DNA of 64,000 bases, taken from assembly GCA_025602905.1 (NCBI GenBank), contig JAHLKI010000001.1:744001-808000 (forward strand), in the 5' to 3' direction. Source of the stretch: Phlyctochytrium arcticum (lineage: Eukaryota; Chytridiomycota; Chytridiomycetes; Chytridiales; Chytridiaceae). Of the stretch, positions 9,627 to 64,000 are shown one piece after another (position 1 is the first letter of the stretch; each line of letters opens with the position of its first letter). Made by a program: the position numbers and the translations under genes. The notes under the pieces were generated by a model. The model was not told where the DNA came from. It searched no databases and saw only the letters and a list, made by a program, of their open reading frames with translations.

Positions 9627-10314
9627 GACTGCGAATTTTTTGTTTTCTTGCTGCTAAGTTTGTTACTGTCGACGCTTATCAGGTATAGCTGCTTTGGTAC
9701 AAGTCCTTTCCACTGGTTCTTTCACTGACTCTCCAATGGCTCTCAGATTGGCTCTCCACTGGGCCAGGCCTGGGCCAGCGCTCAATCAATGGAAAACTCC
9801 GCTCGGATGTGGCGGAGGCTTGCGTGGCTTGAGTAGTGTCGCGTGACGCGTGGCTTGCGGAAAGCCCGCGACCGACGACTGCGCAGTGTGACGGGGGTGG
9901 GTATGACGTCCGTTGCGTGGATCGCTGTCGTTCGCGTCGCTTCTTTCGCTGCGTTTTCACACTCTTTGCCCCCGCTAATTATTAGGACGAACGAGCGACG
10001 ACGAGCGGCAAAGGACCGTCAGCGGAAAAGCATAGGAAGAATCACAAAAAAAACATTGGGAAAAGAATAGAAACACAATAGGAAGAAAAAGAAGGCTGAT
10101 CGGGAAACAGCACACCCTTTGCGGATCGCATCATATATCCCCACTCACACGACCAGGGTCTATCCAAATCCACACGACCCACACAGTGTGCTAAACAAGG
10201 TTGGTCAAGGGCCGTTATATTCTGCATTCCCAATGCTCACACTCTTGTCCTTCTTTCCTTGAATCATAGCGTAGCATAGCAATTATAGCACAGGAGAAAC
10301 AAGCTCACGAAAAA
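9627..10314. other. Divergent promoter region
   Basis: Lies between paralog 4 (-) and the 927-aa gene (+), so it holds both promoters. No gene is supported. The + strand side near the start codon is A-rich. I see no clear TATA box. Confidence 0.4.
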
Positions 10315-13098
10315 ATGGCTAGTGCAATGGACATCAAGCCGTCTTCGGCCCACCACCGCCGCCAGTCTTCCTCGGCCTCGTCCCCAAAATGGATCGACAC
10401 CACAGCTGCCATCCAGCCGTCCCCGCGCCGCAAACTGTCGGTCCTCGACGTTGCGTCTTCGCCCATGGCCGTCAACTTTCATACCTGGCGCATCAATGCC
10501 CTCACCACCAATGCCTTCAAGCAGGTCCAATTTCTCGAACATGCCCAGCAAGTCTTTGCCGACGCGCCCGAATCCGTCACGCGAAAGGCCGCAAAGGTCC
10601 TCAAGGACGTCAAGTTGGGCAGTGGTAGTAGCAGCCTCTCCGCTACCGCCGCCGCTTTGGCTGGCATTGATCATGCCCAGGATTTGTCCCCCATGTATAC
10701 GGGCTTGGTCCAGCTCTTGCAGGCCCCTACTCCCTCTTTGACCGACTCAGAATGGTTTGTTGTCATCAAAACCTACCTTACCGACTTTGCCGACCTCTTT
10801 GAAGAACTCAAAGATGCCTTTGGCGTCCGCGAAGAGGATTTTGTGCCCCCTGCTCCAGAACCGCAGTCGGCCGGCGACGACGATTTGTTGAGCAGTAGCG
10901 GCGCCGAGGGTGATGATGACTTGGACAACACGTCCCGCCGCTCCAGCGTCAAAGTAAAGTTTGATGCTCCCGGCACACCCAGCACCGAAGACCACGGTCA
11001 CACTTACTTTCCACCCACCCCAGCCCCCCTCAACACCCACTTGTCTCCATTTGGCCTCGACACGCAGACTGCTTCTCCTCTGCCCGTGTCGCCTGCTGCT
11101 TCTGCTGTAGTTGCCGAGCCAGAAGGCAGTGTACAGGCCGAGCCTGAAACCCCCGAGGTTTGTCTACCAGGCCATTACATTGCCTACGACCTGCACGTCG
11201 CCATGATGGACCGCCCCGCTGAAATGCGTGACCTGGTCCAACGCAACCCAGACTTGTTTGAAAATATCCGCAACGCGTGCTGCCCATCTGATGAAGCATG
11301 GTCTGATCTCGAATCCATCTTTTACGCGCCCCGTGACCAAATGGACGATCTGACCTGGATGCGCAACATTGGAGACCATCTAGAGGCCAATGCCAGTCTC
11401 CTGGCCGTCTTGAAGGAACTGGTTGGGTACGACATGTACGAGGAAGTTGCCGATGGATCGGATGTGAGCGATGCGGGTTCATCAGATGAATCTATGGGAG
11501 AGGAAGAAGCCTCGGGTCATGCTGTATGGCTAGACAAGATTGTTCGCATGCGCGACAACCCTGAAATCATGGCTCGCCTCGAAAGCGACTATCCCCAATT
11601 TTTCGCCAACGTGCAAAAAGCATTTGATCACGTCCACAGTCGCCGAGTATCACACTCTGAAGGCCATGAACCGCATCACCAATACCATCATCATCACCAC
11701 CATCAGCATCATCATCATCACCAACAACAAGCGGCAGATACCCAATTACCGACTCAATCGTCAACCGCAGCCGTAGCGGGACCTGGTCCTGTATCTCCCG
11801 CCGCGGGTCCCGCTGGTCCTACTGCGCCCAACGAATACGAAAAATTTATTTCTGTATTTTTCAGTTCCCCGGACGTGGTATCAGACCAAGCCTGGGAAGA
11901 AGCCGTTCAACAGGCTCTCTCTTCTAAACAATTACTGGGCCAACTGCGCGAAATTGCCTGCTACGAACTCGACATTGACGAGTCCAAGCTCGCACCCGCC
12001 CCTCCCGAGTCACTCTTTGAAGCCCCTGTGCAAACAGAAGACAATCTCCCTACCATTCCCATTCCGAATGCCAAGGTCATTGTCAAAGCCCGCAACGATC
12101 CCTCTATCATTCATAACCTCGAATCGGAACATCCGCTCTTCTTCAATCTTCTCCAGCGACATTTTACCATGCGCAAGGGAAACAAAAACAATAAGGATGA
12201 GTATAACCGGTTCATTCGGGCCCTGTACGCTCCCCGATCCACCATTCCAGACGATAAATGGGAGTCACTTATCACCCACCGATTCCTATCCACCGCGCGC
12301 CGTCTCCGCCAAATGTTTCGCGAGGTGGTGGATGCCACTGTGGTCAGCACATCTGAAGTCATGACTTCGGATGACGAGCAATGGACCGGTCGGTTCACGG
12401 TTCCTATTCGCTCGCAGCCCGATGGCCCTGCTCAGCTTTTGAAATTGGAGGCGGCCCACCCGGACCTCTTTGCTCGCATCAGGGCCCAATGCGGAGAACA
12501 GTATGGCCGTTTCCGGGCCTTGTTGTGTAAACCCCAGCGTGAAATCGAAGATGATACTTGGGCTGAACGTGTCGAATCCTTTTTGGGAGGAAACCTGGAT
12601 TTGGTCGCTGAATTTGCTGCCGTTGCGGGTGTCCACCAAATCCCCGTCTCGGATGAGAACAACCCGGAGCAGCGACAACCCGCCATGCAGCCAAGCCCAG
12701 CACTGCCTCCTGTATTCCCGCAGCAGCAACAACAGCAGCAACAAGCTGCCCGAAACCCCAGCCCGACTCCATCCGACCCAGCTCCCCCGACCGTCCGTGA
12801 CCAAATTCCTTCATTCATTCCGGACCTCTCCCTTTACCTCTCCCTCAAACGCACTCTCAACGACGACAAGACGTTTGGCCGCCTCCTCCACGCCACCATC
12901 GAATACCGCGAATCCGCCAAACTGGCCGCGAGGGAAGACGTGCCCGTCATGGAAGGCGTGTCCCTGGCTGCCGACGACACCCCCAGTGCTAAACCGGGAC
13001 TGGCCGAGATTCTCCGATCGGCCGCCGAGGAAGTATGCGGTCGCGACACGGAAATGATTAAGAAAATAGAAGCATGGATTGATGGACGGGAACTCTAA
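10315..13098 (+). CDS. 927-aa protein with repeated PAH-like helical units
   Basis: Intronless. About five diverged repeats each combine a helix pair of the type LESDYPQFFANV (also LESEHPLFFNLL, LEAAHPDLFARI, VQRNPDLFENI) with a segment of the type YNRFIRALYAP ... DDKW (also YGRFRALLCKP ... DDTW, YEKFISVFFSSP ... DQAW). The order and spacing recall paired amphipathic helix domains of Sin3-type corepressors, but this is resemblance by eye and unproven. Linkers are acidic and Ser/Pro-rich, with a His run (about residues 456-471) and a Gln run (about 803-810). There is no signal peptide or membrane segment. The first ATG, preceded by an A-rich leader, is used; a second in-frame ATG lies four codons later. 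Possible role: a nuclear scaffold, inferred only. Confidence 0.7.
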   Translation: MASAMDIKPSSAHHRRQSSSASSPKWIDTTAAIQPSPRRKLSVLDVASSPMAVNFHTWRINALTTNAFKQVQFLEHAQQVFADAPESVTRKAAKVLKDVKLGSGSSSLSATAAALAGIDHAQDLSPMYTGLVQLLQAPTPSLTDSEWFVVIKTYLTDFADLFEELKDAFGVREEDFVPPAPEPQSAGDDDLLSSSGAEGDDDLDNTSRRSSVKVKFDAPGTPSTEDHGHTYFPPTPAPLNTHLSPFGLDTQTASPLPVSPAASAVVAEPEGSVQAEPETPEVCLPGHYIAYDLHVAMMDRPAEMRDLVQRNPDLFENIRNACCPSDEAWSDLESIFYAPRDQMDDLTWMRNIGDHLEANASLLAVLKELVGYDMYEEVADGSDVSDAGSSDESMGEEEASGHAVWLDKIVRMRDNPEIMARLESDYPQFFANVQKAFDHVHSRRVSHSEGHEPHHQYHHHHHHQHHHHHQQQAADTQLPTQSSTAAVAGPGPVSPAAGPAGPTAPNEYEKFISVFFSSPDVVSDQAWEEAVQQALSSKQLLGQLREIACYELDIDESKLAPAPPESLFEAPVQTEDNLPTIPIPNAKVIVKARNDPSIIHNLESEHPLFFNLLQRHFTMRKGNKNNKDEYNRFIRALYAPRSTIPDDKWESLITHRFLSTARRLRQMFREVVDATVVSTSEVMTSDDEQWTGRFTVPIRSQPDGPAQLLKLEAAHPDLFARIRAQCGEQYGRFRALLCKPQREIEDDTWAERVESFLGGNLDLVAEFAAVAGVHQIPVSDENNPEQRQPAMQPSPALPPVFPQQQQQQQQAARNPSPTPSDPAPPTVRDQIPSFIPDLSLYLSLKRTLNDDKTFGRLLHATIEYRESAKLAAREDVPVMEGVSLAADDTPSAKPGLAEILRSAAEEVCGRDTEMIKKIEAWIDGREL

Positions 13099-21149: not shown

Positions 21150-22552
21150 GTAATTATTCCACCATCTGGTGAGTCTAGATACAAACCATTGGAACATTGT
21201 ACCCCCAGCAATTACAAATCAGGTGTCTGGAATTGTAGCGACCAGGCCCGTGTAATCTAATACGGATTTCGAAAGAGGCTGGGCACAGCCGTGTCCGTTA
21301 GCGAGAAGTATTGTAGACGCCGTACAATTTTCGTGCCCCTACATGTACAATCTCAGACAGTACATGTCCACTTGTATGGTATATGTACCCCAAAAGTCTG
21401 ACCATACTCACACATATATATACATAGACTACACCCGTTACCAAAATGGGAGAGCACCGGAGAGCATGCATTTTGACATTCCAAATACTAGCAGAAACCG
21501 GTATAGAGAACGTCGGTTTGCCGCAAGTGAAGTTTTTCGAACAGATTTCATCATGTTAAGGAAGTCTGCGAGGAAAGGTGCATCATGGTAACGCTTCAAC
21601 GCCTCCAAGTTTATCGGAGGTACCTCCCTCCCTTTAGTCCCTTACCTCCCTCCCTATATATCATAATGAAATTGGTACTGCCTGAGATTTGCCTGCCCCA
21701 GACGAAAAGAGTACCACTGTCATCTTCAAGATAGTGCGAATTCTCTTACGCAACATGAATGGTACTTACTGGATTGGTTCGTTGCCCCCATCTCCGCCCC
21801 AAAAAAATAAACTATGGTTATAATACAATACGGTACTACGGTACTCCTCAAGGAGAAAACTGACAGCAACATTCCGACGCGTAAGACCTTCTATTACCTG
21901 AAATCTGTTATGAAATAAGCGCGATCTTAGTTTCCCTTAATTTCCCACTGTCTTTTTACTTGTGGAGACGTTTGTGGGGAGAACGACACGTATATATGTT
22001 GAGGCCTCCCTCACGCTCCCTTTGGAATACTTTACGGTTTTCACCAAAAAGAACAACCTCGATAACCTTTGCAGTCCTCACGCCCAATCCGTATATCTAT
22101 AACAGAGTTCACTTTACAACACGTCGGAATCTTTATTTGTTGCTCCGGATATCCCATTCGTTTTGACGACGTAGGTTGACAATGTCTTTGCGAGTTCTTT
22201 GAACACATAACTGATCTTTGTTGCAGGAGAATATTTCCGAACTCTGATCTCTCGTTTCTCCGCAAAACGGTCGTTTTCCTTGTTCGGTCGAAACCTTGAA
22301 CACATTTGCCGATAATCATCATTGTCGTTCGAAACTTTCCAGTTTCCTCTGAACATGTAGGTTAACGTAGCTTTTCCACGCTTACCGGATGGATCACTAA
22401 CTTTTTTTAAAGCATTTAGAGAACTTGCTCATAAAATTTGACGGCTCTCAGTCAACAAGACCGTTTTCTGACCCCGCTTTTGGCTTGCGCCCTTCCCTAC
22501 GTCTTTGCGACCCGGAGCTCATCGCGCCCACCCCCTCTCCGGAACTTTTTAT
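21150..22552. other. Gene-free stretch upstream of the Fanzor gene
   Basis: About 1.4 kb with stop-rich frames, a TA-rich microsatellite at about 21409-21425 and CCTCCCTCCC patches at 21623-21655. No terminal inverted repeat matching the DNA downstream of the Fanzor gene was found by eye. Confidence 0.4.
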
Positions 22553-22617
22553 GTAAGTTTGTCTTGCATACTACCAAATTCTCCAATGATTGAACTCTCA
22601 ATGGTTTATTTATGCAG
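22553..22617 (+). other. Possible 5' UTR intron of the Fanzor gene
   Basis: GTAAGT at 22553 and a pyrimidine-flanked TATGCAG ending at 22617 would define a 65-nt intron ahead of the start codon. It cannot add coding sequence in the main frame, because a TGA at 22649-22651 lies between it and the ATG at 22685. Confidence 0.35.
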
Positions 22618-22684
22618 CGCGTCATCTGCTGCTGTTGCCCGACCATCATGATCTGATTGCACAAACCCTCCATCTACATCGACC

Positions 22685-25600
22685 ATGGCGACCGGTTATC
22701 ACATCACTCGGCCCGTGGGACGACTCAGGGGTCTTTGCCAAACCGGGCATCCCGAGATCGAAACACTTCTTTGCAATGCGGTCGAGGAGGTTGATGCCGC
22801 GATTTTCGATGCTTGCAACTTGGCCCATGTCCATTCTCAACGTCAAGCCGGTGCGTTTATATCAGCTTGCACGGATGATCAACACCCCGGAGGTAAGTCT
22901 TGTCATTCGGTTGAGTCGGAGAGCAATCTCAGTAATTGTCGCTTGTGCTGCAGATTTCAAGGTGCCTGATAATCTGACATTAAACGGTTGCGGGTCCAGT
23001 CACATTTTCTTCAACAACCTCTTACGGATCGCGGCAGGGATCCCCACTCCCGGTACACTCGCCAACCCTGTTCCTGCGTCTCTCGTTACATCCAACAATC
23101 ACTTTCTCGGCGCTGCGCAACATGCCAACTTCACCTGGCCAGCTAATGCAGTTGTGCCCAATCGTCCAGCCCAAGGCACTGCGCCGCTGCACACAAAACC
23201 AAATTATGTGCTCACTCAGCATGAACAACTGTTTGCCATTGAGTCCAAAAAGATGAGGGTAGCGTTCACCACGTATGTGGCATACAGCGCGCAAGATCAT
23301 ATCGAGCAAACGATCAGCCACTGGCTGAGGCATCACGGTAATTTGGGACTTGCCGCTGGAGAACGGGACCGACTTGGTATGAATTTGAGAATCATTATTT
23401 TCCCATGCAGTTTCACCAATGAACCTTTTGAACGCTAGTGGCAAGAACGCTGCTTCTACTGCAGCCGCTTTTCCTGTGCACCTCAACTCACTACGCTGTG
23501 GATGAGCATACCATCACGTCAGGAAATGTTATTCTTTTTGCTGGGTTACATTTGACGACCGCGCGACAGGATAATTACATCAAGTTCTTGGAGTAAGTGT
23601 TCCAGCTACGACGCGACCTGGAATGTATGCTTACTGCATTTATTACAGACCAATAATTGAACTCAGTACTTGGGCCGCAACGTTGATCTCAGTTGAAGAT
23701 TTTGATGGCGAACCACCCCAGAGTGCGGCGACGTCTGAAGCGGCAGCGCAGGACGACCTACATGCCAACCCGGCTTGGAAGTGGAAACGGTTTGTGGGTA
23801 GCAAGCACAACCGGGCCCATTATCTACTTCCTCTGCTGGAATGGCTATCCCAGTATGAGGCCAGTCATCGCCCTCCGCCCGGACAAGTCCAAGGTCCGGT
23901 GCAAGCTCCGGTGCGACGTTCCCTTGAGCATGTTGCCCTCTGCCCCGGTGCGACAAAACGAGGAGTGCGTTACGTACAGTTTGACTATCGTGCCTTGTGC
24001 AATATTTTGGGTCGTCGGGCTAATCCCCCCATCATGATTACGGATCCGACGGCGGCATTGGTTAGGGCCCTATCCAAGAATGGAAGAGATTTCTCCAACG
24101 ACAACAACTCCCGAATGGATGTCTTTTTCCAAATCTTCAACCGGGGAAAAGCCCGCTTTCTGACGCTTGACCATGCAGGCCGGAACTGCTTGCGGCGCGG
24201 AGGACACCTCATCCCAATCACCCGTCTGAGCCTGATCACGAATGGGTACATCGCAAAACTCACTTTTGAGGTGCTGGGTCGGGGTGTTCTACGAGAACGT
24301 AAGTAGCTTGGAAATACGTTGTATTCCTCATCTTTTCTGAAACAAGTCTTTGCCTAGGGCGAATCCCGATGATTGCCGAACTGTCTGACTTTGGTGAACG
24401 CGCCCACGCGGAATTTCGTCGCATTGACAATCCGGATGTCAGTGGAGGCGGTCTTTTCGCCATCAACCGACGCCCGATTGCTCCCGCTGGACGGGTCATC
24501 CACCTCCCATCTCCACCGTCACCCAGCCCATTTGATCCAACCGTGCAGGTGCCAGCCACAAGACGTGTTCTGGGTATTGACTTTGGTCAAAAATTCCAGA
24601 TAGTCGCGGTGTCCGACAACCTGAGCTCTATGGCTGACCGTGCGCGACAACGTCTCCAGCAGCCCAATGCTGCCGACGCCACCATACGGCAAGGCCATCG
24701 CCACCAGCGCTCCCAAGCAATCGCACGCGTGAGGGGCAGGCATTATCGGGAAAAGTGCCTCACAGCATGGTTTGAGAGGAAGGATGCTCGTCGGCAGACA
24801 GCAGATGGGGTGCAAGGTTGGTCGTTCACTTGCGTTCCGTTTTCGAATCCATACTGGATACTGATTTGCCTTGACTCTTTTCTTTCCTCCTATATCAGGC
24901 TCCATTGAACTGCTGCGCGGCAGAGGTGACGAGATGAACGGATTGGGGTTGAGAAATACCCTTTCGTACCTTCAAACGGTCTACACTAGTTTAGACCAAA
25001 TGCGAACGCATTTCCGGGGCGGCTTTTACCAACGCTGCACCCTGACACGGGAGACGGCTCGACAGAGCGCGTTAACCACCACCGCCCGCTTCATCATCAA
25101 CCCCACCTTCATCAACGCGCAAGGTGTCCCCCTCCTCAACCAGATGCGACGCATTGGCAAGTCCCACGCCATGCAAGATCGCCAAAGTCGACGACGCGCG
25201 GCCAATTTGCAGCCAGGCAATGCGCAAGGTAAAGTCAATCTTTTGAGTTCCGATGATTTCCTTCATTGCACTAACTCAATTTGACTCTATTAGTGATTCC
25301 CCCAGCCCCTCTCATCGCTTGTGGGTGGGCGAATTTCAAATGGGCCAAGGGCCACGGCTCTGTACCCACCAAGAGCCTGGCCAGGGAGCTCGCGGTCCAA
25401 GGTGCCACTGTTGTGATGATGTCCGAGAAAGGGACGACCGAACGCGACTCAGCCGGCCTCTCCCACTTTGAAGAGCACACTGTGTTGGGCCAGCCTTCTC
25501 CCAACCTCCCACTCACCAACGACGTCAGGCTGCAGGTCCCGCGATGCACCCAACATCCCAAGAAGCGGCTGCGTCGTAGCCATCAACCCCCTGCTGGCCA

Positions 25601-25999
25601 TCGCCTTCGCCTCCACTGCACACTCCCCGACAACGACCCTCAGAACCCGGGGATGCCCCTTCACCTCACGTCCACCTGCCCCACCAATCTACCCCCTCTC
25701 CCGCCTCAGCCAGGCGTACTCCTGCACCGACTCCGCCGGAGCCGCACCACCCCCATTATCCTGCACCAGCCCGCGCAAGGTAATTATGTTACTGATGATG
25801 GATGTATTTTGTTACGTGTGCTAACGATGAACAACCACAAGCACCACCAGCGCGTGTTATTGTCGACAGAGACATCAACGCCGGGAGCGACATGCGCCAT
25901 CTTTTGTGGAAGTATTGTCACGATGGCGGGGCCCGAGTAGCTTGGAACGTTCCTACTGGATTTGCGTACCAACCCCCACCGCCCAACCTGTGGCACTAG
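22685..25999 (+). CDS. Fanzor, eukaryotic TnpB-like RNA-guided endonuclease
   Basis: Eight exons (22685-22892, 22954-23376, 23439-23592, 23649-24298, 24358-24816, 24899-25228, 25294-25779, 25842-25999) join in frame through seven GT-AG introns of 56-82 nt to 955 aa. Seen: an N-terminal helical part; a wedge-type segment LITNGYIAKLTFE (about 458-470), where relatives have TDG; RuvC-I VLGIDFGQKF with D553; a linker with Arg-rich helices; GHGSVPTK, then RuvC-II VVMMSEKGTT with E786; RuvC-III VIVDRDINAG with D914. Established: Fanzors are nuclear nucleases that cut DNA guided by a noncoding RNA made from their 3' region. Odd: the Cys pairs normally between RuvC-II and RuvC-III are not evident, replaced by a Pro/Arg-rich stretch. 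The start ATG lies in a good context (ACCATGG). It lies next to transposon remnants, but no element termini were found. Confidence 0.82.
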
Positions 26000-26006
26000 T
26001 TCACAG

Positions 26007-26037
26007 TGATGGCACACTGAACGGTGTGCATCCATCA
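26007..26037 (+). ncRNA. Hairpin just downstream of the Fanzor stop, candidate guide-RNA scaffold
   Basis: TGATG-GCACAC, loop TGAACG, then GTGTGC-ATC-CATCA forms a 6-bp plus 5-bp stem with a 3-nt bulge, starting 8 nt after the stop codon. In TnpB and Fanzor loci the guide RNA scaffold overlaps the 3' end of the gene, so the position fits. Assignment as guide RNA is inference; a plain mRNA hairpin is the alternative. Confidence 0.35.
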
Positions 26038-26394
26038 ATATACAGAAATGGTAAGTTGCTCAATCTTTTACAAGTCACTTGTCGTTGCACGCACTAAACA
26101 TCGTAACCCTCTCTCTCCCTGTCCGTCTCCCTGGTTGTCTCGATCTCTCTCTTCTCTCTCTCTCTTGCCTTCACTGCTTCACTGTAATCGTGATTATGTA
26201 ATAATGGTTCGAATCTTTGCGAATATAGTATGTTTGATCAATTCAAAAACTGAGGTGTATTAAGAACATAAGATAAAAGAGATTAAAGGAGCCAGCCGAT
26301 ATCAGTAAGATGGGGGAAGAAACATGTATATGAGGGGAAAATGGAAAGAGGTGTTAAAAGAAAATGAGGGGAATAGTCAAAAGTTGCTTTTTTT
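26038..26394. other. Intergenic; CT-rich tract
   Basis: A GTAAGT at about 26050 could be an unused donor. A pyrimidine tract of CTCTCT repeats lies at about 26107-26166. The right edge reaches the stop of the GH16 gene. No gene seen. Confidence 0.4.
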
Positions 26395-27636
26395 TTAGCA
26401 CATCTTCCACATCTTTACAGAGTCAATCTTGAGAACGGACTTCTCCTTGGTCCAGGTCTTTCCCCAACCACTGTCCTTGGCCGTCCAAAAGTCCTTGGCG
26501 GCAGACTTGCTGTCCTTGGCCCATGGTCGGTCTGGTCCGTCCTTGAAAAATCCAGATGTTCCACCAACAGCCAAGTTGATGACCAGGTAAAACTCTTGAT
26601 CGAAAGGAGCCGAAGAGCAAGTGGCGGTTTCCCACGGGTTGGCAGCGCTGGTTCCAAGTTTGGACTGCTCCCACCAGTTTTGGTTCTTGACTTCGAGAAT
26701 CACGTTTTTTGGGTCGTCGACGTAGGTGACAATCTTCTCGGGGGTCCATTCGACACCAAATGTGTGGAAAGCGTCGGCGTAGGTACCGCCTGATGCCGCC
26801 TTTTCACCGACCGTCTTCTCGAATTGATTGGCGGATGAGTACGGACCCCAATGCAAAGCCGACGAAGATTGATCGTAACCCTTTTGTCCAGGTCCGTTGC
26901 CGCGCGCCTCCATAATGTCAATTTCACCGGATGCCGGCCATGGTCCGTAGGCAGAGTTTTTGGGCAACATCCAAATAGCGGGCCACAACCAGTCTCCAAC
27001 GGGAAGTTGGGCCTTGACTTCAACCCGACCGAACCGGATACTGGCCGAGTCGACAGTGGAGATACGGGCTGATTGAATGGGGTTGATGATGTTGGTTCCG
27101 TCGGATGAGCGCATGCATCCAAACGAGCTGGGGTCTGTACAGTGCACTCCGTTCTCATTCTGATTGAGGTCCATGACTCCTCCGTTCAGTAGCTTGTCGG
27201 CGCCAATCACATCGGATGTGAATGTGGGTCGGATTTCCAGGACGCCATCCTTGACGTAGGAGTTGGTGCGATTGTTGACATACATTTGGAATTCCCAATT
27301 TCTAATGAGAAAAAAAAGAAACGATAGATTAATAAATGTGTGTAGGGTTGTCAAGACAAGACATCAACAAAGTACGTACCCTCCACCAGACATGGTCACA
27401 TCATGCTTCCATTTGGACAGGTCAAAGGTATCAAAGTTGTCCTCAAAGACTGGGCAAAAGTTTCCGGAACTCTGGCCGCACCCCTTGGCCGATGGAGCTG
27501 ATGTCGATCCAGGTGCAGGGGCAGCAGTCTTGGAAGCAGCTTGTCGAGGAAGGATGGCCGCGGAGACTCCAGAGGCCAGGAAGGCAGTTGAAAGCACGGC
27601 CAGCGTAGCAGAGACAGTGGAGAGGTTGACAATCAT
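26395..27636 (-). CDS. Secreted GH16 beta-glucanase (laminarinase type)
   Basis: Two exons: 27636-27380 and 27301-26395, with a 78-nt GT-AG intron; 387 aa. Residues 1-26 are a signal peptide (VLSTAFLASGVSA). The catalytic motif GEIDIMEARG puts the family's E-x-D-x-x-E at E212, D214 and E217, with WLWPAIWMLP just before. Length and motifs fit the GH16 endo-1,3(4)-beta-glucanase / glucan-binding group. Expected role: cutting beta-1,3-glucan outside the cell, in wall remodelling or feeding. No GPI signal or carbohydrate-binding module is visible after the catalytic domain. A TATA box lies about 120 bp upstream. Confidence 0.92.
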
Positions 27637-27754
27637 CGTGAACGGAAAAAAAATCTATAAGTCTAAAATCTAAAGAAAATCTAAAAGGTATTGAAGAACC
27701 GGGAAAATTTCTGGGTGTGAGTGCTGAGAGAAAGGACAAGGATCTCCCCTGGCT

Positions 27755-31946: not shown

Positions 31947-34900
31947 ATGCCTGCCCTGATGGATAATATCGAGTCGGCTCTGCGCTTGGTCAACTCTGGA
32001 CAACTTCCCTCCGCTGTTGCGCTTCTCGATACCCTCAATACAACATCAACCAACAAACCCACCTCGCCCGCCTCAATAACTACTTCGGCACCCGGCATTT
32101 ACAATGCCATCAACAACGGACCCGCCAGGACGACGACGCGTTCAAAATCAATAACAGCAAAAATTGGCCAAGTACTGTTCCGATCAAGTTCGCCGACTAG
32201 CGCGCAAAAACGGCAAGCACCACCACTCTCCGCTTTGCAAACTCATGAAGGAGATGTTGATAGCGATAAATCTGCCGAGAGTGTCATCAGCGCAGAGGCG
32301 GATCTGGAGGAACAAGCAGAACGCATGCAAAGTATGCTGCGCATCTTACTTAGTGAACATCAGAGCTTGTTAGAAGACCGGAAGGGTAGGTTTGACTCTC
32401 CGTTATGCAAGGCTGTTCCTTACTGATACGCAATATATTGTTTTTGCATCTAGAGCTACAGCGCGTGAGAGAGTTCCAGAAACCCCGCGAACCACATTTG
32501 GAAGCCGGGCACAGTTTGCCCACCCCTCCGGCTCAAGCTCCGCCTGCTGCCAATCAAGATGTTCGTGAATCAAGTGTGCCCGATCGCTCAAAGTTGCGAC
32601 CAGCTGGGCAACCTACTCCACCGGTTCATAAAACTGATCGTGAATCAAGTGTGCCCGATCGCTCAAAGTTGCGACCAGCTGGGCAACCTACTCCACCGGT
32701 TCATAAAACCGATATTGTCTTTGCGCCGGATCCAATGGTTGTCGAATGTATTCGGGTTGTTAATGCTATTGGCAAAGGCGACTTCAGTCAGCGCGTTGAG
32801 CTCTCAAATGTGGACTCCCGCAGTGCCAATTACCCGCTATATGAATCTGTCAACGCAACTGTTGATCGCCTATCTGGAATTGTCGACCCAATGCTCCAGG
32901 TCATGAGCGACGTGGCTGACGAGGGAAAGCTCAACTTACAGGTCCAGTTCAACACTGCCGAGGGGAAATGGGCGGACATGGTTGTAGGCATGAACCATGT
33001 TACCCGAACACACTGGGACCGCCTGCGGGAAATTGTTGAAGTTTGTAAAGCTGTCGCCGCTGGCGATTTGACTCGTGAGATCCGCGTTGATTTGAAGGGC
33101 GACGCACTCATTCTTAAGCATACAATCAACACAATGGTGATCACCTTGGGCACATTCGCCACTGAGGTCAGACTAGATGATTGTCAAAAACAATTATAGC
33201 CGACAACTGATGATTCGTTCTTGTTCCATTAGGTGACAAAAGTGGCTCATTTGGTAGGGACGGAGGGTCAGCTCGGTGTACAAGCACAGGTTCACGGCGT
33301 CGGTGGAACTTGGGCAGTGTTGACCGATAACGTCAACAGAATGGCTGCTAATCTTACAGGTTTGTCCCGGTTGGTTGCGTGCCCTAGCGTTTCTTCTAAT
33401 GACCCTTTTTCTCTGCAGATCAAGTTCGAGACATTGCAAATGTCACAAAAGCAATTGCACGGGGTGATTTGAGTAAAAAAGTCCGGGTCGATGGAAGAGG
33501 CGAAATTTTGGAATTGAAGGAAACTGTCAATAGTTTGGTGGATCAGCTGACAACATTTGCGGCCGAGGTACTGACATTTTTGCCATATGAGTCGTAGTCA
33601 ATCCTCTAATTCCAGGGAACCATAGGTCACGCGTGTTGCTCGGGAGGTTGGAACAGAGGGTCGATTAGGCGGGCAAGCTGTTGTAAAAGATGTTGGTGGG
33701 ACGTGGAAAGAGTTGACAGAGTCCGTGAATGCAATGGCTGGAAATCTGACTGCTCAAGGTGCATCCGTGATCTATTTCTCGTTTCTTCCAGAATTAGTGA
33801 ACTGACATGATTTCTCACAGTGCGGGACATTTCGTCAGTCAGTTCTGCAATTGCTCGGGGAGATCTAAGTCGAACAGTCACAGTGGACGTCCGTGGAGAG
33901 ATGCTTGAATTAAAAGAGACGGTGAATTCTCTGGTTGACCAGTTGCGGACGTTTGCTAGTGAAGTCACTCGAGTTGCGCGAGAAGTCGGTACTGAAGGTG
34001 TCCTTGGTGGTCAAGCTGTCGTCAAAGATGTGGCAGGCACCTGGAAAGAACTGACAGAATCCGTCAATGCCATGGCAGCGAATTTGACTGCACAAGTACG
34101 GGACATTGCGGATGTTACCAAAGCCATCGCCAAGGGAGACCTCAGTCGGAAAGTCAGGGTTGATGGTCGAGGTGAAATTTTGGAGCTGAAAGAGACTGTC
34201 AATAGTTTGGTGGAGCAGTTGACCACTTTTGCATCGGAGGTGCGTATAGTTCCCGCAAATGCACGTTTGGCCGAGCTGATCCGATTCACGCTCTACAGGT
34301 TACTCGTGTGGCAAGGGAGGTCGGAACCGATGGAAAGCTGGGAGGTCAAGCTGTAGTTGAGAATGTTGCTGGTACTTGGCGGGAGTTGACAGAGTCCGTC
34401 AATGCCATGGCAAGGTATGTACAAGCGTGATTGAGTCTTGCTGGCGTGGAAAGATGATTAATGCTTCTGTAGTAATTTGACGGCTCAGTTGCGCGATATT
34501 GCTTCCGTCAGTTCGGCCATTGCCAAAGGAGACCTTAGTCGGACAGTCACAGTCAATGTGGAGGGTGAAATGCTTGAACTGAAGGAGACAGTTAATAGTC
34601 TCGTTGACCAGCTCCGAACATTTGCAAGTGAGGTGACTCGAGTGGCTAGGGAGGTGGGTACAGAAGGAAAATTAGGCGGTCAAGCTGTTGTCAAGGATGT
34701 GGCAGGCACTTGGAAAGAACTCACAGAGTCGGTCAATGCGATGGCTGCCAATTTGACGGCTCAAGTACGAGATATCGCTTCAGTTAGTACTGCAATTGCC
34801 GCGGGAGACTTGTCGAAAACTGTCACAGTCATTGTACAAGGCGAAATGTTGCAATTGAAGGAAACCGTTAATAGCTTGCTGGATCAGCTGCGAACCTTTG

Positions 34901-37900
34901 CCCGGGAAGTGACTCGAGTCGCAAAGGAAGTCGGGACTGAGGGCAAGCTGGGCGGTCAGGCCGTTGTCAAGGACGTTGCGGGCACCTGGAAAGATTTGAC
35001 GGACTCTGTGAATGCAATGGCAGCCAATCTAACGGCGCAAGTGCGGGACATTGCATCGGTCAGTACCGCCATTGCTACTGGAGATTTATCCAAAACAGTC
35101 ACCGTCGAAGTTCAAGGAGAGATGTTGGAGCTAAAAGAGACAGTCAACAGTCTTGTGGATCAGCTGCGGACGTTTGCGCGCGAGGTTACCCGAGTTGCCA
35201 AAGAGGTCGGCACTGAAGGAAAGCTGGGCGGGCAAGCGGTCGTTAAAGATGTGGCGGGTACGTGGAAAGACCTTACCGATTCCGTCAATGCCATGGCCGC
35301 CAATTTGACTGCTCAAGTGCGTGATATTGCCTCTGTCAGTACCGCGATCGCTGCAGGCGACTTGTCCAAAACTGTTACCGTAGACGTGCAGGGTGAGATG
35401 CTCCAATTGAAAGAAACTGTCAACTCGCTGGTCGATCAACTTCGAACGTTTGCCCGTGAAGTAACACGAGTTGCGCGAGAGGTGGGTACGGAAGGAAAGT
35501 TGGGTGGCCAGGCCGTCGTCAAAGATGTTGCCGGAACCTGGAAGGAGCTGACTGAAGCAGTCAATGCAATGGCTGACAATCTGACGGTAAGTTCCGTTTG
35601 TGTCACCTCGCCCGATACAGGAAAATACTAACGCCATCTGGTGGGGTGAGTAGACACAAGTGCGTGACATTGGTCGAGTCAGTAAATGCATTGCACGCGG
35701 TGATCTCAGTAGTAAGATTGAGGTCGATGTTCGGGGTGAAATGTTGGAGCTCAAAGAAACGGTCAACTCGCTTGTCGATCAGTTGCGGTTGTTCGCCAGT
35801 GAAGTTACCCGGGTGGCCCGGGAGGTAGGCACGGAAGGCAAATTGGGCGGACAAGCCCATGTTAAAGACGTCGCTGGTATCTGGGAAGAGCTGACAAAAT
35901 CTGTCAATGCTATGGCCGCGAATCTGACCGCTCAAGTCCGGGATATCGCGGGTGTAACCAAAGCTGTTGCTCGCGGAGATCTGGGCCGTAAAATTGTTGT
36001 CGAAGGCGGTGGAGAAATTCTGGAGTTGAAAGATACGGTCAACCGCATGGTGGATCAGCTTCGGACGTTTGCGGCAGAAGTTACTCGGGTTGCGCGCGAA
36101 GTAGGCACTGAGGGAAAACTTGGGGTACAGGCTCAAGTCGACGATGTCGAGGGCACATGGCGCACCATTATTGTCAATGTCAACACGATGGCTGCCAATC
36201 TTACCTCACAAGTTCGCGCTTTCGCCGATATTTCTGCCGCAGCTACGGACGGTGATTTCACTCGACTTATTGACATTAAAGTGGAGGGTGAAATGGCCAG
36301 TCTCAAGTCCAAAATCAACCAAATGGTTTTGACCCTGCGCGATTCGATTCAGAAGAATACAGCTGCACGAGAGGCTGCCGAACTTGCCAATCGTGCCAAA
36401 TCCGAGTTTTTGGCCAACATGTCGCACGAGATTCGCACCCCGATGAACGGCATTCTGGGCATGACTGCTCTTACACTTGAAACCGATTTAACTCGCCAGC
36501 AAAAGGATAATCTAATTATCGTCTCATCCCTAGCCAATTCGTTGCTTTCGATTATTGATGATATTTTGGATATTTCAAAGATTGAAGCGGGCCGTATGCA
36601 AATGGAAGAGATACCGATGAGTCTGCGCAGCGTCGTGTTTTCGGTCCTCAAAACCTTGGCTGTTCGCGCCCACCAGAAGACATTGACATTGGTCCTGGAC
36701 GTGGATAATGGAATTCCCGATCAACTCGTTGGTGACCCGCTTCGCCTAAAGCAAGTCATTACAAATCTCGTTGGTAAGCTTGAAGCGCAAAATATCTAGT
36801 ATCTTCTTGGAAATGGTATTAACTTGTAATTCTAGGAAATGCTATTAAATTTACAGCTGAGGGTATTGATCGTTCAACTACCCCCCGAAAGGGTATTTGT
36901 TTTTCGCATTTTCACGCTTTCCATTTTGGAACTAACTTGTTGGTCTCCCCTTTTTCTTTGTTGTTCCTCTCGATCAGGCGAAGTTGTTCTACATGCCACA
37001 TTTAAGGGGATCGACGGAGATGAAGTGGAGTTAGTATTTTGTTGCTCGGACACTGGAATCGGGATCGAGGACAGTAAAGTAGAGTTGATTTTTGACACCT
37101 TTTGTCAAGGTATGGGGTTGGGATAATGCTAATGTTGCGGGCGTGCCTCTCATTGTTAAAATTTCCAGCGGACGGCTCAACAACACGCAAATTCGGTGGT
37201 ACTGGTCTTGGGCTTACAATATCTCGTCGACTGGTCGCATTGATGGGTGGTGACTTATGGGTCACATCAGTATTTGGCGAGGGCAGTCGGTTTTACTTTA
37301 ATGTGCGCTTCAAATTGTATCGGCGCAATGGCCACGAAGACATCGATCCAAAACTTGCTGCTTTCAAGAAGGCAAACATTTTGATACTGGATGAGGATGA
37401 AGTTGCGCCTGAGTCGCCGATCATAACAGAAATCGATGACTCTGGGATCGGTCCCGGTTTGGCGACAGAGGAACGTCTGCAATTAGTCAAGCGCCTGAAC
37501 CCACCAGGAACTCCCGGAACATTACCACCAGCCGAATCTCTCGAGTCACTGCAGCCTGCGCTTCAGCAACTCGGTTTCATCACAGCACACGTGAAGACCT
37601 TGGCGGAAGCATCCGCTTGTGCTGAAACAGTGACTTATTCCACCATCATCCTATCTTCACTCGCCATGCTTGAACGGGTCAGGAACGACCCACGGTTACG
37701 CTACATCCCAGTCATGTTCTTTGCGCTTACACCGCGAATGCGACTTGACATGAAATGGTGCATCGATGTTGGTATCGCATCATATGCGTCTGCACCAGCT
37801 ACCAAAGAAGATGTGGTAAATGCTCTCATCCCATCTCTGGAGAGTTCAGTGCAAAGCGGACGACATGGATCGGGTGAGGCTGGAACTGCTAGCGGGTCGG

Positions 37901-38451
37901 CAGGCTCGGGCTATGAGGTTCTTTTGGCCGAAGACAACGTAGTCAATCAAAAACTGGCGTTGAAAATTTTGGAGCGTTTTGGCCACAAAGCCGTGGTGGT
38001 TGAGAACGGAAAACTGGCTGTCGAGATGTTCCAACAAAGCGCATTCGATCTTATCCTGATGGACGTGCAGATGCCCATCATGGGCGGTTTCGAGGCTACT
38101 CAACAGATTCGTGCTTTGGAGAAGGCTAGCGGCCACGACACACCTCTCAAACGTATTCCTATTGTAGCGGTGACTGCACACGCTATGATTGGTGACCGCG
38201 AAAAGTGCCTCAATGCGGGAATGGACGAGTACATAACGAAACCGCTTCGTATGAATGAATTGAACGCCATCATCAATAGGTTCCCCCGACGAGTGCATCA
38301 AGCGCATGTTACAGGAGGCAGAGCAGCAGTTGCCACAGGAGGGGCCGCTAGTGCTGGACTCGTAGTCGGTCAGGACGTCAAAATGGGCAAGACAGATGAC
38401 GCGAAAACCAGCGACTCCAGGGACAGTGTGGACAAGGTTGAGATGTCATGA
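31947..38451 (+). CDS. Group III hybrid histidine kinase (Nik1/Os-1 type) with enlarged HAMP array
   Basis: Twelve exons (31947-32385, 32454-33166, 33233-33359, 33419-33567, 33626-33758, 33821-34239, 34299-34414, 34473-35586, 35654-36773, 36836-36862, 36978-37109, 37169-38451) join in frame to 1923 aa. A linker with a 25-residue tandem duplication is followed by about 12 HAMP units (GDLS..V.V...GE.LELK) alternating with diverged units ([20 protein letters not shown]). Then come HisKA (SHEIRTP, H1328), HATPase ([14 protein letters not shown]) and a receiver ([10 protein letters not shown]1795). No membrane segment, so cytosolic. Family role: osmotic and stress signalling to the HOG MAPK pathway; it is the target of phenylpyrrole and dicarboximide fungicides. 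Typical members have five or six HAMP repeats and about 1300 aa, so this one is clearly longer. Confidence 0.95.
32564..32713 (+). repeat. Near-perfect 75-bp tandem duplication inside the kinase gene
   Basis: Units 32564-32638 and 32639-32713 are identical except for one base near the end (ACTGAT against ACCGAT). The frame is kept (25 residues each, starting [16 protein letters not shown]). Confidence 0.95.
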
Positions 38452-45235: not shown

Positions 45236-46483
45236 CTAAACACGAGCTGACTGAAGGTTATAGTGGGGTGAGGGAGGCTGGCATCGGAACCGTTTCAACT
45301 CGGGAAACTCGTCAAGAATGTCTCGATGGTGGTGGTACAATGGAAGGGTGGCGGTCGAAGATTGATAGGCGGGATGGTCAAAGGATTTTAAGGATCGGAC
45401 TGTGGATGTTGAGTCGGGAATGATGCTGGTGGTGGTGGTGACGGGGTCAAAGCAGGTGGATGCGCTGCTTGAGCACGTGTTGGAGGATGAGTTGCTAGAG
45501 ACGGAAGAGGCCGAGGATGGGCTGGCAGAGTTTGTGGTGGGGGATCCGGCAGCGGATTTCGCAGCAGCAGCATGAGCTGCGGCAGCCGCGGCCGTTGCGG
45601 GAGTGTGTTTGATGGGTGTTGTGTTGGGCTCTACAGTAACGGTGAACCGTCCCACTTTGTGGACCGCGATTGGAGTAGTCGCGGACGGGCTTTGAAGAGA
45701 GGGAGTTGAGACAAAAGAGGATGAGGCCAAAGGGGATAAGGTAGGTGCGTCACGGGCACAGGCTGCAGAGATTGGGCTCGGCGCAGATGACTCTGGAGCC
45801 GATTGTCGGCGTGCCAATCGACTCGGCGGTTGATAAAATAGGGGGCTCAGAATCGTCACTGGGGTAAGTGGAGAAGGGGGCACCGTCTGGTTGACAAATG
45901 ATCCGGTCGTGAGAAGCGTGGACGTAAGGCCTGTGGGGTCAAACTTGACAGCGGGGGTGTTGCTGCGGAAGGTCGTTTGATCCGCTTCCTGATCATCCGT
46001 GGTGACTTGAACAGCAATGTGGGCTGCCGATGCGAATTCGAGGGCAGTTAGGCGCTCTGTTCTCGGCGACTCTACCAACGTCTTCAGCGATGGGTGATTG
46101 AGATGGGTATGTACTACTAGAACAGGCTTGATCTTTGGTAGGGATTGTGATCGCTGATGCCCCAGTGGTGAAGATGCCAGGCCAGCCGGAACTTTTAGGG
46201 TGGCAAACCTTGTCGCATTGGAAGAAGAAGAAGAAGATGAGTTGCGTCGCAAGTTGGTGTTGGCTGCATTCTTTGCTCCCGCCATGTGCTTGGAAAGCCA
46301 TTGCCGGACATTGCATCGCAGCTGGCCGATTGATGATCGACGCCGACCTGATGCCGCGGTGAGGAGGGATGAGTCCCCAGTGTCGTAGCGATCTAGTCGC
46401 TGCCCCGCAGAAGCTGGTGAAGATGGAGTAGCCGACGAACAACGACGGCCGCCCGATGACAAAGCGGCAAACGACGTCGACAT
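45236..46483 (-). CDS. 415-aa low-complexity protein, unrecognised
   Basis: Single exon. Rich in Ser, Thr, Ala and Pro, with a poly-Ser run (about 81-88), a poly-Ala stretch (about 295-310) and Ser/Thr-Pro sites that would suit kinase regulation. The only ordered-looking motif is AVHKVGRFTVTVEP (about 275-288). RFTV fits the RFx(V/I) docking motif read by SPAK/OSR1-type kinases, but such short motifs occur by chance. No signal peptide or membrane segment. Long frames on the opposite strand are shadows caused by codon bias. Confidence 0.6.
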   Translation of the reverse strand: MSTSFAALSSGGRRCSSATPSSPASAGQRLDRYDTGDSSLLTAASGRRRSSIGQLRCNVRQWLSKHMAGAKNAANTNLRRNSSSSSSSNATRFATLKVPAGLASSPLGHQRSQSLPKIKPVLVVHTHLNHPSLKTLVESPRTERLTALEFASAAHIAVQVTTDDQEADQTTFRSNTPAVKFDPTGLTSTLLTTGSFVNQTVPPSPLTPVTILSPLFYQPPSRLARRQSAPESSAPSPISAACARDAPTLSPLASSSFVSTPSLQSPSATTPIAVHKVGRFTVTVEPNTTPIKHTPATAAAAAAHAAAAKSAAGSPTTNSASPSSASSVSSNSSSNTCSSSASTCFDPVTTTTSIIPDSTSTVRSLKSFDHPAYQSSTATLPLYHHHRDILDEFPELKRFRCQPPSPHYNLQSARV

Positions 46484-47700
46484 TGGTGGAAGCGCGACGG
46501 AAAGGAAGAGATGCGATGAAGGGCGGTATTCCCCGCCGGCAGAGTTGGTAGCAATAAGGTGGAAGTAGCAGTTAGCAGCCAGACTGCCTGCCTATATGAA
46601 TGTTCCGGCAATGCGAGGTCCAGATTATTAAGTTGCAACAAACTCTAAAAGCCTGCTTGAAAGGCGAGCCGGAACAGCAATGGAATATTTAACTGTTAGT
46701 GACGCGAGGGCGTAAAATTATTACTGGCGGCGTTGAAGGCGCGTCTGTCCGGTTCTCTGTATGAACCACTCCGGCGCTCGATGTCTTGGCTTTTTGCCGT
46801 GGGCGAGCCTTCCTCTTGGCGGAAGCAGAGCGCTCAAATCTCGTATATGCGGTCCCAAGCGTTTAGGCTAAGTATCGCCAAAAACTGGTATGATGGCACG
46901 CCGAAACTGGTATGAAATAATAACACTCCAAAGCCAAATAAAAAAGTCTACTGCGATGCTAATGTCGTGTTTTCTCTGTAGAATTCTGTAAATGATAAAT
47001 CGTCCCTGGGCGGCCTGGGATTAATGTGTAAAAGTCAAAGTCGCTTTGCCCGGCTGGTCAGGATGGCTTCTCTCGGAATAGTCAAGAGATGATACTTTGA
47101 GCGGCGGAAAAAGGTCGACACCTATCGCATCCACACAAGAATATATCGTCACTAGGACAAAAAGTGTTACAAATCGCCAGATTCCACATAATATTGTGGG
47201 GGATCCATGCTTTCACAGTTTTAACGCGCACCATAGAGTCCATTTTGGGGTTGGGAAAAAAACGCGCGAACGCGGCCTGGCTGGCCATGGTGAGAAATTC
47301 TGGGGTGTGCTGAAACAAAGGGGCCGGGTGTTACGCGACCAGAGCGGCCAAGTGTGCGCTCAATGGCGTCCATACAAGGAAAGAAACTTTCATGGTTTCA
47401 GTTGGGATCCCCTTTGGCATCATCCCGGCGCGCCCCAGAGTATCATAGAAGGATGTAGGGTGGGAACTTTTTGTTGCCATGACCCTGGCCCCCGCAACTC
47501 GGTGCCAGATATGAATGAACTGGCATGCGCGACAAGAGAAGGTGCCGTCCCAAATGTTCTTTTTGTGCTCGTTTTTGGCAGAAAGGAAAAGAAAAGAATG
47601 CCGTATCTTTGCTACACATCGGTATCTGGCTTTACCCCACCCAGCTGTGATTCTTGACACTCCAGCCAGGTGTTATATATGAGAACCTAAAAAGTTTATC
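46484..47700. other. Intergenic, no gene seen
   Basis: About 1.2 kb. The longest frame (47097-47657, +) has no domain, no good leader and an improbable composition, so I do not call it. Confidence 0.4.
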
Positions 47701-61573: not shown

Positions 61574-63221
61574 TCACAGAGCGGAAATAACGAAAGCGCT
61601 CAGAACTCCCAGCCCCAGAAATCCCGTAAAAGATGTCAAGGACTGCGATCGCCCCCGACTTCCACTCCTTTCGGCTGCATCTATGCTTAAATATGGCGCC
61701 CAAAGCCGATTCAAGTTCCAAACCTCCACTCCTTCCCCATCAACCACCTCTCCAGCCCGTTTATAGATGTCATCTCCCCAAATAATGTAAGCCTGCTTGA
61801 GCAAATCTGGGAGAGCTGTTCCAATTGTAAACTCATCATTGGGGGGTGTTGGCCAGCCAGTGCCGTTTGCGAGAGCAAACGGGTATAGGAAATCAAGAGC
61901 ACGGCGAATTGGGTTGAGTGCTGGCGAAGAAGTGGTCGAATTGGTTCCCGTTGTCGCATTTACGGTAGCCGTTGTAAAAGAAAACAGGTCGATGGGCAGA
62001 CTGGATTGACGCGACATTTGGCCCAAGGTAAACAATCCGTGGAGGTATGATACGCTGGCAAACCAACTTCCTGGTTTAGCCATCTCCACCGTAATACGAC
62101 CCTGCTCATCCATGGCTGCCGCCACTCGCTCCGCAGAACGAATCATCACCAAATTTGCGGCAGTCAGATTTCCCGTGTACAGGTACAGTGCGGCCTCTTG
62201 CACATCAAGCCAGATACCTCGATAATCTGGCCGAGAGCGTTCGTAGGCGGCCAACGTTGACGTTTGGATCCATTTCAAATACGACTTAAGCCAGTCTTGC
62301 ACTATAGAGAGAGATGTTGCCGGGAAGCTGGGTGAACGAGTAAGGAGGATTATTCCATCCAGGAGATAGGGCAATTCCGACATGACTATCCAGGAACGCT
62401 CTGTTTAGTTGCTATGCCAGGTTACGCGGTTATGAGTTTGACTTACCCATCATACTTCCATTCACTGGAGTGAGCGTGTTCCAGCCTTTCGCGACTGCTG
62501 GGAACTGGCGTCGCGTCACTCCAGCTGGTTTGCCAGGCCATCCGTCAGGGATGTGATCCCACACATCCTCATCCTCAACGGACACTGTGGTGCCGGTAAC
62601 AACTCCAGGCACTGCCTCCACGGCACCCGGGACAACCCCTGGGATGGGTTCCCGTCCCCTGACAATCTCGGCCCATTGTAGATTTGGATTCATTCTTGTC
62701 TGATTGTTGACGAACCACGCCTCGAGACGTTTGATTCCCGTTGACGCGGTGACTTCATCGCCCGTCAGGAAATATGCCAATCCCGTATAAAAGACATCCT
62801 GTAGGAATTGGACCAAATAATTTGCATCCTGAACTTCCAAAACATCGGGATTGAGATTATTCGGCAGACGAACATACGGAAGTTTCGTGGCGGTAAGATT
62901 GTTTGGCCACCAAAAGGGAGAGAGTGAGTAGAAATCATGTGGATCTTTGGAAGGTGGAAGCATGGATTTTGGTTTGGCTGTGACGGTCGTATTGGAAGGA
63001 TTGATCGTTGCAGCTTCCGTAGCAAGACGAGTGACGCGGTTGATGGCCGGATTTAAATCCCGGAGGCCTTGCGCGCTAAGCGCACGATTGCGAGTGAGAT
63101 GGTATGCATCAAGGTAAACCGTTGGTGGGGGAGTAGCGGGATCCGTTTGGGCAAGTGTTGCAGGGACCCAAAAAAGACTACATAGTACTAAGATTGCTGC
63201 AAATTTTGTCGGGTATGTCAT
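61574..63221 (-). CDS. Secreted, GPI-type alginate-lyase-domain protein
   Basis: Two exons (63221-62447 and 62385-61574) join in frame to 528 aa. Residues 1-25 are a signal peptide (AILVLCSLFWVPATLA). DFYSLSPFWWPNN matches the DYxSxxPYWWPN block of the alginate lyase superfamily (PF05426-type), followed by alpha-barrel helices and Asn-rich glycosylation sites. The C-terminus ends in a small-residue site and a hydrophobic tail (FTGFLGLGVLSAFVISAL), a GPI-anchor pattern. In fungi this domain occurs without proven alginate activity, so the substrate is open. The first ATG giving a signal peptide was chosen over an upstream in-frame start that would bury it. Confidence 0.85.
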
Positions 63222-64000
63222 TGCCCTTGGCGACGGCAAATCAGCGATTTCGTTATTCCGAGTCGAACGAGCCTTGCTTACTCGAGTATTATGCGAGCGC
63301 ACCTCCTTCGATAATAGGAGAGATGTTTTGACTGATGACCTTGCTTTCAATGAATGGTGGAAAACTGCTCGCAATAGTCAGATTTCAAGTGCATCCTCAC
63401 AGAGCGCGCTCGTTGGCGCTCGCGTCGCGTCCCTGACGCGGTCAATTGCCAACGTAAGCATCAGAAATTCTCACCGCCATGCTCAGATGCTCACGAATTG
63501 CGGGTCCTGAAGGTTAAAATCTAAAATCTAAAAAGTGTCTTAAATGTTATGCCTTACTGCACGCCTCGACGGCGGCCTCGCACTGTCCACGAAAGCTGGA
63601 AAAAGTTACGGTGCGACTTCATATATGATACAAGCTGGCAAACCCGAGCTTTGCTCGGGATACAAACTTTGTAATTCGAGATGACAAATCTCGAATACCA
63701 ATAGCGACAGAGCGTGAACTCTGCCGGATACACTATCCTACGTCTATATAAAACTATATACAAAAGACATCACTAACCACGGGCAAAGGGCGCTGGCCGG
63801 CCGTTCCCGGCTAACATGGACCGGACGATGAATGCCATGTTTGCGGTACTGAGCTTGTCTCGGTTGTGATATCTTGTCGGAACTCCCAGGGTCGCGTCGT
63901 TCGTCCAGAGGGCTTGTGTGCATTGGAGGTTGGTACAACCTAGCAAGCCATGAACGTTTTCGTCGTGTCCTTGGGCCCGTCGCCAGGGCCGTGAGCTTGG
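63222..64000. other. End of window, no gene seen
   Basis: Promoter side of the alginate-lyase-like gene followed by about 700 bp without supported coding frames. Confidence 0.35.

Follow-up and report, generated by a model that had tools for sequence, protein, structure and literature searches.

Results

An Intact, Multi-Exon Gene within a Transposon Copy

We analyzed a 64,000-nucleotide stretch of contig JAHLKI010000001.1 of Phlyctochytrium arcticum (the window; all coordinates below are positions within it unless a contig is named). A gene on the forward strand at 22685-25999 comprises eight exons (22685-22892, 22954-23376, 23439-23592, 23649-24298, 24358-24816, 24899-25228, 25294-25779 and 25842-25999), which join into 955 codons and a stop codon with no internal stop. 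All seven introns are 56-82 nt in length and bounded by GT-AG, suggesting that the transcript is spliced as predicted from the sequence. The joined open frame and the seven GT-AG introns bear out the proposal, made in an earlier sequence-only reading of this DNA, of an intact spliced gene of 955 codons in eight exons. The same structure is open in a second copy, C1b, which has a 955-codon frame and GT-AG sites identical in layout to those of the window copy. From blastn comparisons between copies and a reading of their junctions, the gene lies in a transposon copy of about 4.85 kb at 21380-26230 (+).

A glycosyl hydrolase family 16 gene (26395-27654, -; Pfam match on 26398-27363) adjoins the right end of the element. 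The window also contains a gene for a HAMP-repeat hybrid histidine kinase (34462-38448, +) with HisKA, HATPase and response-regulator parts, and a piece of an alginate-lyase-family gene (62430-63377, -). Three long open frames, at 10270-13095 (+, 942 aa), 86-1822 (+, 579 aa) and 45239-46591 (-, 451 aa), had no Pfam match at E ≤ 0.001.

Conserved RuvC-Like Motifs and a Candidate Zinc Site

The sequence-only reading had also assigned a TNG segment and three acidic RuvC positions to the protein. We found TNG459-461 (24238-24246), D553 in the RuvC-I-like motif GIDFG (24579-24581), E786 in SEKGTT at the alternative-glutamate position (25425-25427) and D914 in the RuvC-III-like motif DRDIN (25871-25873), all on the forward strand, at the positions claimed and in the right order. 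Each of these columns is invariant in A1, an alignment of six family members out of 21 loci; two other alignments, A5 and A8, hold 14 and 15 rows, respectively, from 8 loci each. The motifs also persisted in the wider set of copies. Among the 17 copies spanning the first motif, 15 have DFG, one DLG, one NFG and none DPG, so that its aspartate is present in 16. EKG[TS][TS] is retained in 12/12 copies spanning residue 786, and its glutamate, judging from position, is placed as the alternative glutamate (Ealt) ahead of the zinc finger. D914 is retained in all ten copies that span it and R913 in nine of the ten, the third motif of the family being DRD[IV]N.

When SEKGTTERD of the window family was set against TEEYTTKQC of a canonical chytrid family, E786 matched the glutamate of E-x6-C, and D793, which lies seven residues past E786 and is invariant in 12/12 copies, replaced the first cysteine of the C4 ribbon. 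The C4 zinc ribbon expected right after [TS][TS]-X-X is absent from the family; conserved instead, among the members aligned there, is a later set, C826-x2-H829...C850...C870 (25545-25679, +), a candidate zinc site replacing the CxxC ribbon. The DRDIN of the window protein is similar to DRDVNG in a PF07282-matching frame of the same genome. The spacing from D553 to TT789 agrees with D-X(125,275)-[TS][TS], as given in PMC3627910. The pattern DxG...E..[TS][TS]...RD.N[AG], which was partly picked post hoc, was found in 0.021% of 100,000 shuffles of the window protein.

Profile, Database and Structure Searches

With the window protein as query, no Pfam family was matched at E ≤ 10, and the TnpB family was matched by none of six members; weak matches of single members to RuvX (E 0.19) and RRXRR (E 0.047) are evidence neither way. 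Scans of NCBIfam and PHROGs profiles returned nothing relevant to TnpB or Fanzor, and searches of the PDB by phmmer and hmmsearch returned no TnpB, Cas12 or Fanzor. Across these searches, the top matches other than TnpB (FabG, 0.046; ABZJ_00895, 0.0036, for one member) were at chance level. The sequence-only reading had stated that a lack of matches to Fanzor/TnpB profiles would refute it, and no such match was obtained from Pfam, NCBIfam, PHROGs or the PDB. Sequence search is, however, a weak test at such distance, because a control profile (A6) from 14 canonical chytrid relatives, although it placed TnpBs as PDB hits 1, 2, 3 and 5, reached them only at E = 0.15-0.22. PF07282, the ribbon model, matched 15 other places in the genome, 13 of them above the cut-off. 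Comparison with the canonical chytrid relatives by hhalign, on shallow alignments and without a working positive control, was not significant.

Two AlphaFold2 models (pLDDT 41 and 50, pTM 0.24 for both) were too poor to use, and Foldseek on the first of them (pLDDT 41) found nothing at E ≤ 0.001. In the protein database, with about 8,000 candidates scored in each search, the window protein retrieved nothing and the family profile retrieved one match, a 447-aa hypothetical protein (P0002) of P. arcticum. No relative of the family was found in IMG/VR and GTDB contigs; the canonical family was likewise unmatched in viral contigs.

A Multi-Copy Family under Purifying Selection

The window protein matched 91 places in the genome (31.48 Mb, 91 contigs), representing at least 21 loci including that of the window; this count is a lower bound, with 48 of 76 candidates scored and matches grouped by hand. 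Identity to the window protein ranges across copies from 99% down to about 45%. C1b (C1:849338-852649), which lies inverted on the same contig about 79 kb away, is 99.7% identical to the window copy over 3,633 bp. C18 is about 99% identical to the window copy but frameshifted, and C5a is also frameshifted.

Purifying selection has acted between copies. The dN/dS values against the window copy were 0.33 for C1b, 0.57 for C18, 0.43 for C24, 0.26 for C5a, 0.28 for C15, 0.21 for C8b, 0.10 for C43 and 0.13 for C49, and the value between C43 and C49 was 0.72; all were taken from well-aligned stretches only, which biases them towards conserved sequence. For C5b, C52, C8, C4 and C12, dS against the window copy was saturated and hence uninformative.

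A Constant Right End and Variable Left Ends

The element ends on the right at GCGAATATAGTA (26219-26230, +), where 7/7 matches stop and differing flanks begin. A search with the terminal 83 bp of the window copy matched only seven places, the window included, and all seven end at ATAGTA. The distant copies C5b, C8, C4 and C5d likewise end in ATAGTA; this end is lost in C6, and C52 and C2 break off ahead of the terminus. The 5' limits differ, from 21380 in the window copy to 22601 in C1b, and C41 keeps only about the last 63 bp. The left limit of the window copy is where similarity to C18, C43 and C49 ends, those copies extending about 170 bp further left. TTTT directly precedes C18, C43 and C49 only, and neither the window copy nor C1b. 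The C43 copy (contig C43, about 60221 to 67443) is apparently split by an insert of about 7 kb, which leaves the final 73 bp of the copy at 67443-67515.

Examination of copy junctions by eye gave no convincing target duplications, and within the element neither inverted repeats nor a transposase gene were found. The joined flanks of the window copy had no second contiguous site, a result that says little when drawn from one genome. Helitron_like_N had 101 matches in the genome. A LINE origin, which could be considered from the constant 3' end and variable 5' end, is disfavored because the copies keep their introns. We conclude that this is a transposon family rather than a lone domesticated gene, since it occupies 21 loci and has a precise right end and a nearly identical intact sister copy.

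Near-Identical Shells around Diverged Coding Regions

The coding region is enclosed by non-coding shells. The 5' shell (21380-22684, +), where open frames of more than 111 aa neither start nor end wholly inside, is 0.88-0.97 identical to C49 and C43, whose coding regions are far more diverged. For the same two copies, identity to the window copy was 0.91-0.99 in the 3' shell, 0.60-0.74 in exons and 0.57-0.72 in introns. Against C49, identity was about 0.9 ahead of the ATG and fell to 0.66 inside exon 1, was 0.60-0.86 in the windows that cover exon 8 and the vicinity of the stop, and reached 100% over 26030-26230, so that the shifts near the start and stop codons are abrupt. Against C5a, identity was 0.97-0.98 over 21919-22684 and 0.62 further left, owing to indels, and on the 3' side the contrast was weaker (intron 7 0.97, exon 8 0.86). 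In the region of 21864-21918, 40-56 bp of the 5' shell are tandemly duplicated in C18 and C43 (L018, L019) and single in the window copy.

One possible explanation for the near-identical ends is ectopic gene conversion, or the acquisition of different coding cassettes by one shell, rather than selection on the ends. The abrupt drop between shells and coding region in the comparison with C49, where introns are as diverged as exons, argues for such an exchange, and we consider it likely. However, the 5' region of the window copy is 79% identical to that of C4, whose synonymous sites are saturated, which suggests that long-term constraint may contribute, and the weaker 3' contrast of C5a also fits exchange less well. 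Gene conversion or cassette exchange is thus the simplest reading of the shells, with room left for constraint.

A Hairpin and an Intron-Like Segment at the 3' End

Just past the stop codon lies a hairpin, GCACAC/GTGTGC (26011-26029, +), which is found in nine copies, is missing from C52, C2 and C6 through loss or truncation, and is a candidate guide-RNA scaffold. Its covariation consists of one compensatory pair, equaled in 175 of 500 shuffles and therefore not significant, and Rfam gave no match at E ≤ 1 over 21300-26400. A 26-nt inverted repeat, 73% complementary, links intron 7 (25796-25821) with the hairpin region (26012-26037); intron 7 is the best-conserved intron in comparison with C5a (0.97) and is nearly absent in C49 and C43.

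On the 3' side of the hairpin, TACAGAAATG/GTA[AC]GTTG (the slash marking the putative junction) is conserved between two deep subfamilies and lost in C4. Next come CTAAC or CTAAA, a pyrimidine tract and the terminal AG of the element. In the window copy, these features delimit a putative intron-like terminal segment of 178 bp (26051-26228, +) with GTAAGT, CTAAA/GTAAC, a pyrimidine tract and the terminal AG. Given its base composition, the absence of AG from the 3' stretch is slightly unusual (P from shuffling 0.014 in the window copy, 0.042 in C8 and 0.20 in C5b), and the broken copies C5a and C49 contain internal AGs there. An ordinary intron at the terminus is disfavored because the branch-like site sits 103-135 nt from the AG, a distance that is 21-23 nt for coding introns 6 and 7.

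One conceivable role for this arrangement is a guide RNA assembled by the spliceosome, in which the 51-nt hairpin stretch (26000-26050) would be spliced over the 178-nt intron onto TA and the flanking guide. We regard this as quite improbable. With its 51-nt scaffold and a guide, the proposed RNA would be about as long as the trimmed RNA of SpuFz1, the Fanzor1 of another chytrid, Spizellomyces punctatus, which consists of a 52-nt scaffold and a 15-nt guide (PMC10432273). At the level of search listings, the literature on Fanzor and on IStrons with TnpB yielded nothing on splice-assembled guide RNA. If such a guide were made, the DNA ends for transposition could sit between scaffold and guide, outside the RNA.

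Discussion

The window protein resembles Fanzor in its motif order, namely GIDFG, EKGTT with a Fanzor-type glutamate, and DRDIN. The identification as Fanzor made in the sequence-only reading holds for the conserved D-E-D order and the position of the glutamate, and falls short in DPG, the adjoining CxxC ribbon and profile matches. The Fanzor fingerprint is described as DPG with an alternative glutamate (PMC10711439), and the window family has the glutamate position and lacks DPG. Similarly, of the pattern D-X(125,275)-[TS][TS]-X-X-[C4]-X(5,50)-RD reported for Fanzor (PMC3627910), the first spacing fits the window family whereas the adjoining C4 does not. The combination of DFG and Ealt is, by contrast, the fingerprint of a TnpB clade with D(hydrophobic)G and an alternative glutamate described in PMC10711439; unlike that clade, the window family is eukaryotic and spliced, and has neither a CxxC ribbon nor a profile match. 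In our judgment, the window protein is probably a diverged TnpB-type nuclease that falls outside Fanzor in its published definition.

SpuFz1 shares with the window protein the D-E-D order and the glutamate ahead of the metal-site region. In the window family, by contrast, DFG stands in place of DPG, the adjoining CxxC ribbon is absent, the 955 aa are spread over eight exons and the D-E-D spacings are 233 and 128 residues, compared with 158 and 65 in SpuFz1 (D383, E541, D606; PMC11423790); inverted repeats were not recognized in the window element. SpuFz1 takes its guide RNA from the DNA between the stop codon and the right end, together with 14-15 nt of the flank (PMC10432273), and the conserved hairpin of the window family occupies the place of this region. 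The same genome also carries TnpB/Fanzor-type genes of the canonical kind, at L007 (G000:C8:349045) and L001, in which DPG or CxxC motifs are present. The E-x6 position of the Fanzor2/IS607-type L007 family can be aligned with the window family, but DPG and CxxC are present there and profile similarity between the two is not significant; among relatives of L007 in other chytrids, one carries a serine-recombinase domain.

As elements, the closest parallels are the CRe-1,2,3 Fanzor1 elements of Chlamydomonas, described in PMC3627910 as likewise multi-exon, with intact 3' ends, frequent 5' truncation and internal deletion, and interpreted there as products of one-ended Helitron2 transposition. 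The window family also shows a constant 3' end and 5' truncation, with 7/7 right ends identical and differing 5' limits; it differs in that no target duplications were seen and in that only C18, C43 and C49, and neither the window copy nor C1b, follow TTTT. IStrons (PMC4227781) likewise combine a transposon with splicing ability, with a group I intron there and a putative spliceosomal-type terminal intron here.

Taken together, the best explanation of these data, and one to which we give somewhat better than even credence, is that the product of the window gene is a RuvC nuclease of TnpB/Fanzor-like type that has diverged strongly and belongs to a chytrid transposon family with many copies and plausibly recent mobility. 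On the model of Fanzor and TnpB, the nuclease would bind RNA made from the 3' end of the element and its flanking DNA, and the RNA-bound nuclease would cut DNA matching the flank, by which the element may persist or spread. Nuclease activity, RNA guidance and the location of the scaffold in the 3' non-coding region are thus proposed from these known systems. It could be argued that the gene encodes an unrelated transposon protein, such as another RNase H-type protein or a non-nuclease, which is TnpB-like by chance at three short motifs, and the missing profile and profile-profile matches and the poor structure models would agree with this. However, the ordered motifs are rare in shuffles, even with the pattern partly fitted, and the three acidic residues are invariant in 6/6 members and kept in 16/17, 12/12 and 10/10 copies, so that we consider a chance resemblance rather unlikely.

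The sequence-only reading had further raised the possibility that the gene is domesticated. An intact frame and purifying selection would be expected of a host gene; the 21 loci, the constant right end, the differing 5' limits and an intact sister copy 79 kb away that is just 0.3% different make domestication highly improbable. This suggestion is accordingly not supported, and we prefer the hypothesis of a TnpB/Fanzor-like nuclease belonging to a transposon.

Should the protein prove to be a TnpB-type nuclease, it would represent a eukaryotic lineage that lies outside the Fanzor fingerprint and is missed by the profile searches used, and RNA-guided nucleases in fungi would therefore be undercounted. 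With a difference of 0.3% between the two intact copies, recent mobility is plausible and activity can be put to the test. The intron-like terminus and the shared shells pose the question of how such an element may produce guide RNA where the host cell performs splicing.
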